Positions 40,410 to 42,864 of a DNA stretch of 64,000 nt are shown here, piece by piece (position 1 is the stretch's first letter; each line of letters opens with the position of its first letter). The notes under the pieces were generated by a model. The model was not told where the DNA came from. It did no database searches and saw nothing but the letters and a program-made list of their open reading frames with translations. Source of the stretch: Salisaeta longa DSM 21114 (GTDB lineage: Bacteria; Bacteroidota; Rhodothermia; Rhodothermales; Salinibacteraceae); contig NZ_ATTH01000001.1 of NCBI RefSeq assembly GCF_000419585.1, positions 456,005-520,004 of the forward strand. The letters run 5' to 3'. Made by a program: the position numbers and the translations under genes.

Positions 40410-40481
40410 TTTCCCGGGACTCCAGCGGCTTGAGCCATGACGTTCAACTCGCTTGTCTTTTCAATAGCGGCGCGTTTGCAT

Positions 40482-41192
40482 ATGAAGAAGTTTTTTGTTC
40501 GCACGCTTCTGGGGGCGGCCTCCGGTGCCATGTTGCTGGTTGGTGCGTGGATGTACGGCCCACAGATCGTTGACAACTTCGAGACAAATGCGGTGGGCCA
40601 ACCGCCCCAGGGTTGGATTCACGTAACGGAAAGTCGAGAGGTGACGTCCATCCAGCAGGCCCTGGAGCCGGGTGAAACGTTTGCGGTGAAAGCGGAGGAT
40701 GGCAACAAATTTCTGCGCGTTGGCACCAGAAATGAGGCGCTCCGGTTTTCACAGCGCAACGGCGAGGAGTTTGACTGGTCGCTGAACGAGCATCCGCGGC
40801 TGCAGTGGCGATGGCGCGCGCTGCACCTGCCGGAAGGGGCCAGCGAAAAGGACAAAAACGACACCGGGGCTGCGCTTTACGTCACGTTTGGCTCCGATTG
40901 GTTGGGGCGCCCCAAGAGCATCAAGTACACGTACAGCTCAAGCCTGCCGGTTGGCACGGTCGTGTCGTTTGGCGCGCTGCACGTGATTGTGGTGAGCTCG
41001 GCGGTCAATGGGAAAATTGGCCGGTGGAAGACGGTGCAGCGCCGCGTTGCAGACGATTATGCGCAGGTGTTTGGCGGCACGCCGCCGAACCGCCCGGTCT
41101 CCATCACGGTGTGGAGCGATTCCGATACGACACATGGCAGAGCCCTTGCTGACTTCGACGACATCGTACTGCTGCCGCCTTTTCGGCGATGA
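40482..41192 (+). CDS. Exported DUF3047-family protein
   Basis: A 236-residue protein from ATG 40482 (MKKFFVRTLLGAASGAM). An uncleaved or cleaved signal helix is at 1-22. The rest fits DUF3047: VDNFETNAVGQPPQGW, LQWRWRALHLPEGA, and SDTTHGRALADFDDIVLLP near the end. The fold is probably a beta-sandwich like carbohydrate-binding proteins. Function in the family is unknown; periplasmic location is inferred. Two palindromes lie upstream. Confidence 0.83.
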   Translation: MKKFFVRTLLGAASGAMLLVGAWMYGPQIVDNFETNAVGQPPQGWIHVTESREVTSIQQALEPGETFAVKAEDGNKFLRVGTRNEALRFSQRNGEEFDWSLNEHPRLQWRWRALHLPEGASEKDKNDTGAALYVTFGSDWLGRPKSIKYTYSSSLPVGTVVSFGALHVIVVSSAVNGKIGRWKTVQRRVADDYAQVFGGTPPNRPVSITVWSDSDTTHGRALADFDDIVLLPPFRR

Positions 41193-41316: not shown

Positions 41317-42864
41317 ATGGAAGCAAATGGTACCCGTAGCGACGGGACGTCCGGAACGCAACAAGAAATGCGGGCCGCGCTCGATGAGTCGCGGAGTGGA
41401 GCGCCTGCGGCGGGCGAAACGCTGCGTGATCAGTTTTCAACCGACGAAATCTTCCATCGGCTGGTGGTGGCGGCCGATGAAGAGTTTAGCCGCTCGACGC
41501 GGCTGCTCTTCTTGAGCGGATTGGCCGCCGGGCTGTCCATTAGTCTGTCGTTTGTGGGCATGGTGGCGCTTTCTGCTGCAGTGCCGGGCGAGGGGGCTGC
41601 CGTCGTGGGCAGCCTGATGTATCCGCTGGGCTTCTTGTTTGTGGTGGTGGGGCGCTACCAGCTCTTTACCGAAAACACCCTCACGCCGGTGGCGCTGGTG
41701 CTCACGCGCATCGCGAGCATTCCGCTACTGTTGCGCGTGTGGGGGTGCGTGCTGCTCGCCAACGTGATTGGTGCGGGCATCACGGCCTATGTACTGGCGA
41801 CCACGGCGGTGTTTGAGCCCGAGATGGCCGCCGTGGCGATGGAGCTGGGGCATCATCAGCTGGAGATGACGTGGAGCGAGCTCTTCTGGAAAGGCGTTTT
41901 TGCGGGCTGGCTGGTGGCGGGAATGGTATGGCTCAACTACGCGGTGCGCGACATGACTTCGCGGCTCTTTATCACCTTCTTTCTGATCTTTACCGTATCG
42001 GCAGCGGGCCTGGCGCACTGCATTGTGGGCTCCGCCGAGGTGCTGTACGTGGTCTTTCATGGCGACGCAAGCATCCTCACATACCTGATCGACTTCCTGG
42101 TGCCGGCTGTTTTGGGAAATACGGCCGGTGGCGTGTTGCTGGTGGCCATCCTGAACTACTCACAGACCCGTGATCGGCGCTTCCCGGATCGTGACTGCGG
42201 GCGGTTGGAGCTGACGTGGAGCGAGTGGATCTTTGGGCATGCATCAGGCCGGCCCGACCTCCTGGCTACGGGGACAGGCGGCGGACCCGAGACGTTCGAC
42301 CCGCGTGGCGAGCCAACGCTTGCGCCGCCGGTCGATGCCGACGACCACGCGAAGGGAGCAACCGGCGACGACGCGATCGTCCTCACGCAGTATGGCGACT
42401 ACGAGTGTCCTACCAGCCGCTCCATCTACGACGCGGTAGAGGGCGTGCTGGAGGCAACCGACGACGTGACGTACGCGTACCGGCATCTGCCCTTGAGCCA
42501 GCGGCACCCGCACGCGGAGCTCGCGTCGATTGCAGCGGAAGCGGCAGCGCGGCAAGATGCGTTTTGGCGCATGCACGACTGCCTCTTTGAGCAGCAAGAC
42601 CACCTGGGGCGCGATGATGTGATGGCCCACGCGCAGGCCCTCGGGCTTGATGTGGAGCAGTTTCGGTCCGACTTGTCAGACGACACGCTGCGTGATGAGG
42701 TGCGCGCCGATCGGGAGTCGGGGCTCAAGAGCGGCGTGCGGCGCACGGCGAACCTGTTCATCAACGGCGTACGGTATCCCGGTCCGTTCACTGCGGATGC
42801 CCTGCAACGATCGATCCGACGGATGCGCGCGGTGCCCACAAACGAAGAGGCGGTGCCGGCGTAA
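41317..42864 (+). CDS. Formate/nitrite-transporter (FNT) protein fused to degenerate DsbA-like domain
   Basis: A 515-residue fusion. Residues about 40-300 are an FNT-type channel with six hydrophobic segments. The conserved His of the central pore is kept in GLAHCIVGSAEVLY, closest to the YfdC-type subgroup. A 45-residue linker leads to a DsbA/thioredoxin-like domain at about 350-505, with AIVLTQYGDYECPTSRS, RHLPLSQRHPHAELAS and a late RRTANLFINGVRYPG. The usual CPxC has become CPTS and the expected cis-Pro before LFING is Ala, so thiol exchange is unlikely. FNT proteins conduct small monovalent anions; the fused domain may be regulatory. A similar thioredoxin-like tail is known on some NhaA antiporters. 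Confidence 0.9.
   Translation: MEANGTRSDGTSGTQQEMRAALDESRSGAPAAGETLRDQFSTDEIFHRLVVAADEEFSRSTRLLFLSGLAAGLSISLSFVGMVALSAAVPGEGAAVVGSLMYPLGFLFVVVGRYQLFTENTLTPVALVLTRIASIPLLLRVWGCVLLANVIGAGITAYVLATTAVFEPEMAAVAMELGHHQLEMTWSELFWKGVFAGWLVAGMVWLNYAVRDMTSRLFITFFLIFTVSAAGLAHCIVGSAEVLYVVFHGDASILTYLIDFLVPAVLGNTAGGVLLVAILNYSQTRDRRFPDRDCGRLELTWSEWIFGHASGRPDLLATGTGGGPETFDPRGEPTLAPPVDADDHAKGATGDDAIVLTQYGDYECPTSRSIYDAVEGVLEATDDVTYAYRHLPLSQRHPHAELASIAAEAAARQDAFWRMHDCLFEQQDHLGRDDVMAHAQALGLDVEQFRSDLSDDTLRDEVRADRESGLKSGVRRTANLFINGVRYPGPFTADALQRSIRRMRAVPTNEEAVPA

Follow-up and report, generated by a model that had tools for sequence, protein, structure and literature searches.

A conserved FNT channel variant of Salisaeta longa with a rewritten DsbA-fold tail

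Background

In FocA, a channel of the formate/nitrite transporter (FNT) family, the N- and C-termini are both cytosolic and transport depends on residues at the C-terminus (PMC5572259). The protein PflB binds the N-terminal helix of FocA and is required for translocation in both directions (PMC11841067). This interplay with pyruvate formate-lyase is the one well-studied case of cytosolic control of FNT channels, and it is hard to dissect. FNT channels broadly stand alone, as a first-pass annotation of the DNA studied here had stated, but not without exception: haloarchaeal FNT-UspA fusions have been published (PMC3102087), and an FNT that carries a universal stress protein (Usp) domain is encoded, for instance, in Natrinema gari (L078, 2869–4785). 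Here we describe a gene of Salisaeta longa DSM 21114, located in a stretch of 64,000 nt (contig NZ_ATTH01000001.1, positions 456,005 to 520,004; in the following called the window), which codes for an FNT channel with a C-terminal DsbA-like domain, the tail. Fusions of the FNT-UspA kind were already known; the conserved channel variant with a rewritten DsbA-fold tail is new. Searching the literature for thioredoxin domains joined to FNT or NhaA gave nothing relevant and, within the library searched, no paper describing FNT-DsbA fusions, and in the main text of a survey of 2206 FNT sequences the words thioredoxin and DsbA were not found (PMC5525234).

Results

The fusion of an FNT channel with a thioredoxin-like domain, as proposed in the first-pass annotation, is borne out by a single uninterrupted open reading frame of 515 amino acids (Table 1). 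The profile PF01226 matches residues 44–281 (E 2.4e-53, 181 bits against a cut-off of 34.6, profile positions 1–239 of 240), and PF13462 and PF01323 match residues 355–500 (E 7e-12 and 4e-8, both above their cut-offs). The best NCBIfam match of the tail, the Rcas_1661 thioredoxin-like (seleno)lipoprotein family, is far below cut-off. The gene is the sole FNT gene of the S. longa genome. Full-length homologues with the same FNT-first layout exist in other genomes (52–69% identity), including an independent complete plasmid record, Salinibacter ruber pSR116, and ten distinct fusions of this layout were found in total. A sequencing error, a chance fusion and an assembly artefact or chimaera could be ruled out, as nine other distinct homologues have the motif CxTS and none has the cis-Pro; an error at the second Cys, once considered as a way to explain the motif away, is excluded by a Ser in all ten. 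A viral origin was also rejected, the viral contig collection being without any relative. Copies of FNT/DsbA fusions are, however, carried by halophile plasmids.

It is the active site of the tail that departs from its relatives. Where DsbA-type oxidoreductases have CxxC the sequence is Cys364-Pro-Thr-Ser367, and where the CxxC relatives have Thr-cisPro-Thr-Phe before the third strand it is Thr477-Ala478-Asn479-Leu480 (R-T-A-N-L-F-I-N-G), in agreement with the first reading of this gene. All ten distinct FNT-first tails show CxTS, in the form of CPTS (7), CETS (2) or CVTS (1): the equivalents of Cys364, Thr366 and Ser367 are invariant and the Pro between them is sometimes replaced. The cis-Pro position is taken by S, A, N or K, followed by Asn in ten out of ten. 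With the second Cys gone, the tail cannot run a CxxC dithiol-disulfide exchange, and the absence of the cis-Pro likely alters its substrate groove. In glutaredoxins the cis-Pro sits in a TVP motif; the tail has T-A-N there, although its CPTS does correspond to the CxxS active site of the monothiol glutaredoxins. The latter typically have Ser in this position, and in proteins of the thioredoxin (Trx) fold the cis-Pro is more conserved than CxxC itself (PMC2757866). A Trx-fold domain which keeps the nucleophile while losing the cis-Pro is an unusual combination for this fold. The original statement that the domain "lost its redox residues" is therefore correct for the second Cys and the cis-Pro, but not for the nucleophilic Cys364, which is kept in 10 of 10 tails and makes the domain a monothiol one.

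Between close pairs, the ratio of nonsynonymous to synonymous substitutions (dN/dS) is 0.056–0.105 for the tail versus 0.105–0.243 for CxxC-bearing versions. The tail domain is under strong purifying selection, and no stop codons exist in any fused bacterial copy found in our survey of the class. Together with the motif shared by all ten and its invariant Cys, Thr and Ser, these ratios show that the site is conserved and rewritten, rather than decaying. The lone Cys within an invariant C-x-T-S, together with the new Asn, suggests a site where a ligand may be bound or an adduct formed.

Haloarchaea fuse the same two domain families in the opposite order, DsbA first and FNT second. Such fusions are found in Natrinema, Natrialba, Halocatena, Haladaptatus, Halosolutus, Saliphagus and others, and among 30 distinct copies the cis-Pro is present in all and both cysteines in 29, the exception reading SSEC. 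An intact CPxC in most fusion relatives had been named as a result that would refute the first reading. This is half the case: in the survey of active sites 29 out of 40 distinct FNT-DsbA fusions keep CxxC, but each of these is in reverse order. Five positions separate the FNT-first from the DsbA-first group (S367/Cys, L391/Phe, F424/Tyr, N479/Thr, L480/Phe), and S367, L391, F424 and N479 are derived residues common to both bacterial families. In a domain tree built without the active-site columns, the ten bacterial tails group as a single clade (support 99/98; 93/84 in a wider set with added relatives). The tail is a descendant of a CxxC DsbA-like family and now unable to form the CxxC disulfide. 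A single clade for the FNT halves of these fusions was rejected (approximately unbiased (AU) test, p 0.005), as FNTs without a fusion and two DsbA-first fusions of archaea (L046, L068) are interspersed among them. One clade for the tails and none for the channels implies that the domain was lost, swapped or transferred. Judged from these trees and alignments, domain type and active-site state track the channel end that carries the domain, not the FNT lineage. That the same two domains became fused at opposite ends argues for a functional link.

Redoxin genes lie beside several haloarchaeal fusions, some of them also with separate DsbA genes (L039, L058, L059, L072, L037, L069). The gene row redoxin – DsbA – DsbA-FNT fusion in L039, L058, L059 and L072 suggests a thiol or peroxide link to the haloarchaeal channel. 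One haloarchaeal fusion adjoins formamidase. In Natrialba aegyptia contig 9, Haladaptatus halobius and a metagenome bin (L057, L055, L097) the DsbA-FNT frame does not run through, being spread over different frames or broken by a stop.

Within the class, FNT-first fusions occur in the Salinibacteraceae (L004, L005/L043, L006 and plasmid pSR116, L033) and in the Balneolaceae (L044, L045, L047, L110, L112). A full-length or near full-length match was obtained in 9 of 245 genomes, and an FNT without the tail in about 20 of the 245; the scan of genome contigs for fusions used only two peptide patterns, both from the FNT N-terminus, so that fusions on distant FNTs could escape it.

The C-terminal domain is indeed predicted to keep the DsbA-like fold. 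Its AlphaFold model (predicted local distance difference test, pLDDT, 93.5) shows a Trx fold with helical insert, and its closest PDB entry is 3gyk (Z 21.9, root-mean-square deviation 2.1 over 168 residues), further matches being BdbD (Z 20.3) and YjbH (6gho, Z 15.7). In a full-length monomer model (predicted template modelling score, pTM, 0.68) both domains are confident, joined by a linker of low confidence (Table 1). By homology to FocA the tail is probably cytosolic.

Channel residues were mapped via an alignment to Salmonella FocA (3q7k). T118 (FocA T91) and H234 (FocA H209) are invariant in all FNT rows compared. The positions Y102, F106, R113, E119, N120, G197, V227 and V237 show the states that were assigned to the uncharacterised YfdC subfamilies (PMC5525234), that is, an aromatic residue at FocA position 79 (F106), a hydrophobic residue other than Phe at 202 (V227), Glu at 92 (E119) and Gly at 172 (G197), and furthermore the Asn at 93 (N120) of the alpha type. 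The Y-L-R motif right after transmembrane segment 6 that is linked to formate channels (PMC5572259) is absent, the sequence there being NYSQTRDRRF, nor is there the Phe at position 202 that FocA-type channels have. By these residues the S. longa channel is a YfdC-type, YfdC-alpha-like FNT. In a profile search of the S. longa genome, formate dehydrogenase alpha subunit and FTHFS did not exceed the cut-off, and no pyruvate formate-lyase and no NIR_SIR were found; formate or nitrite metabolism was therefore dropped as a clue to the substrate. The same genome does hold BshA of bacillithiol synthesis (558 bits), which implies bacillithiol.

Table 1. Features of the FNT-DsbA-like fusion gene of S. 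longa (positions in the window)
Feature	Position	Strand	Details and basis
Whole FNT-DsbA-like fusion gene	41317..42864	+	515 aa, single uninterrupted open reading frame
N-terminal segment, residues 1–43	41317..41445	+	family motif GAPAAG...D.FSTDEIF (alignment); predicted cytosolic by FocA homology (topology PMC5572259)
FNT channel domain, residues 44–281, YfdC-like pore	41446..42159	+	Y102, V227, H234, V237; E119, N120; G197; diagnostic positions PMC5525234
Omega-loop residues T118 (FocA T91), E119, N120	41668..41676	+	FocA alignment
H234, central pore histidine (FocA H209)	42016..42018	+	FocA alignment
Low-confidence linker, residues 282–349	42160..42363	+	pLDDT <50 at 285–296 and 310–330
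DsbA-like thioredoxin-fold domain, residues 350–505	42364..42831	+	profile matches, predicted structure
Active-site motif C364-P365-T366-S367 (CxxC in oxidoreductases)	42406..42417	+	sequence, alignments
T477-A478-N479, cis-Pro position occupied by Ala, then clade-invariant Asn	42745..42753 (Ala478 42748–42750)	+	sequence, alignments

In the window, a small gene whose product has a Luciferase domain (PF17648; 42929–43390) starts 64 bp past the fusion gene, and a DUF3047 gene (40437–41192) lies upstream. By eye, neither of them adjoins the other bacterial fusions compared.

Two further groups of DsbA-like proteins came up in the class. The same DsbA subfamily is fused to a DisA_N/DAC-like domain (PF02457) in L019, L020 and L176 (Rhodothermales, family f10); there the DsbA-like part has CPYC and the cis-Pro, and a thiol-linked cyclic-di-AMP enzyme is possible. 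Separate, unfused DsbA-like proteins with CPFS or CPFG and without cis-Pro are encoded in two genomes of Rubricoccaceae type (family f13; L177, G057:C1:1799000-1801500, and L178, G038:C1:3768500-3771000), both of which have an unfused FNT elsewhere. By eye, a thioredoxin-like gene is located just upstream of them and in G038 also a peroxiredoxin-like gene downstream. For grouping these standalone proteins with the fused tail, the wider tree gave an AU p of 0.25.

Discussion

What might such a tail do? We see about an even chance that it is a module at the cytosolic face of a YfdC-type channel with a role in regulation or in binding a partner. Since both ends of FocA lie in the cytosol, transport requires its C-terminal residues and a cytosolic partner controls flux, a cytosolic tail would be well placed to regulate. 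A homopentameric channel is expected, so that five DsbA-fold domains would extend into the cytosol on flexible linkers at the C-termini. At the cytosolic channel mouth the tail could bind a client protein, or C364, as its putative ligand site, could be modified by a small thiol or another adduct, and either event could tune the passage of anions. The existence of other fusions of a transporter with a soluble domain, FNT-Usp and NhaA-DSB, counts in favour of such a module. A sensory, gating or binding module had been proposed from the beginning; such a role fits better than decay, as the loss of the dithiol is fixed in the tails of both families and kept by purifying selection, and only the wording of a domain without its residues has to be given up. 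Several observations weigh against a regulatory module. Many close FNTs of the same class are without the tail domain, which means that the channel as such can do without it; no conserved neighbour or operon exists around the bacterial fusion loci compared; and the relative packing of the two domains is not fixed by the full-length model, given its pTM and weak linker. As a tentative and rather doubtful specification, the protein might be a thiol-gated anion channel of a salt-adapted lineage, with one single-Cys DsbA-fold sensor per protomer that would open or close the pore according to the adduct it carries (bacillithiol, a metal or a partner protein), the archaeal counterparts using a true CxxC domain at the channel's other end.

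The tail could instead be a monothiol enzyme, with C364 performing chemistry of the glutaredoxin or bacilliredoxin kind, for example by making or resolving mixed disulfides between bacillithiol and proteins at the membrane, and the channel being an anchor or source of substrate. The invariant Cys with a Ser always in place of the second one resembles monothiol glutaredoxins (PMC2757866), BshA is in the genome, and redoxin and DsbA genes adjoin several of the haloarchaeal CxxC versions. However, this neighbourhood is not kept at the bacterial loci and the cis-Pro, which outlasts even CxxC in this fold (PMC2757866), is gone in all ten tails, so that we regard an enzyme as unlikely. It seems likewise improbable that the tail is a mere aid to pentamer stability or docking site for a soluble partner, in which nothing is sensed and C364 plays no part. 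DsbA-fold proteins can be cytosolic adaptors, as is YjbH, which binds Spx for ClpXP (PMC7889195) and is among the structural matches of the tail, and a mere scaffold would also suit the many sister FNTs without it; but C364 is strictly retained among varying neighbours and N479 is both new and invariant, which speaks for a working site.

Two further explanations appear very improbable. That the tail is what remains of a redox fusion, decaying and persisting by inertia, would be in line with long branches in the domain tree (0.58–0.61 for the S. longa tail, 1.2 for L045) and the patchy presence of the fusion, but is already disfavoured by the low dN/dS of the tail, by the derived residues common to two families and by the intact frames of the fused copies in the class survey. 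Just as little can be said for a metal or Fe-S sensor of the channel, in which loss of the cis-Pro would have freed C364 for a metal or cluster: C364 and several His of the stretch RHLPL..RHPHA are conserved, but there is only one conserved Cys per domain and the same His are conserved in the CxxC versions, hence no new site.

The two fusion orders offer a natural pair: a soluble, assayable domain sits on a channel, once with a normal and once with a rewritten redox site. Such a pair is suited to test if a thiol site governs anion flux and by what means, and is a starting point for learning what the uncharacterised YfdC-type channels do.

Comparison with known systems

With the YfdC-alpha-like subfamily of FNT the S. 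longa channel has in common PF01226, the residues T118 and H234, the constriction Y-V-H-V, E119-N120, F106, R113 and G197 (PMC5525234); it differs by the additional, presumably cytosolic DsbA-like domain. The haloarchaeal DsbA-FNT fusions, annotated merely as formate/nitrite transporter family proteins, share 38–46% identity in the DsbA part and 48–65% in the FNT part. In contrast to S. longa they have DsbA first, the cis-Pro without exception and nearly always CxxC, and often stand beside redoxin and DsbA genes. In the haloarchaeal FNT-UspA fusions a soluble stress-type domain is likewise added to an FNT, but it is unrelated to the DsbA-like tail. Among NhaA Na+/H+ antiporters there are likewise members that end in a DsbA/thioredoxin domain, which belongs to the DsbA subfamily of the tail; CxxC and cis-Pro are intact there in eight out of eight examined. 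YjbH, finally, is soluble, is not fused to a channel and in Listeria retains the CXXC motif, but it also uses the DsbA fold for binding a partner in the cytosol.
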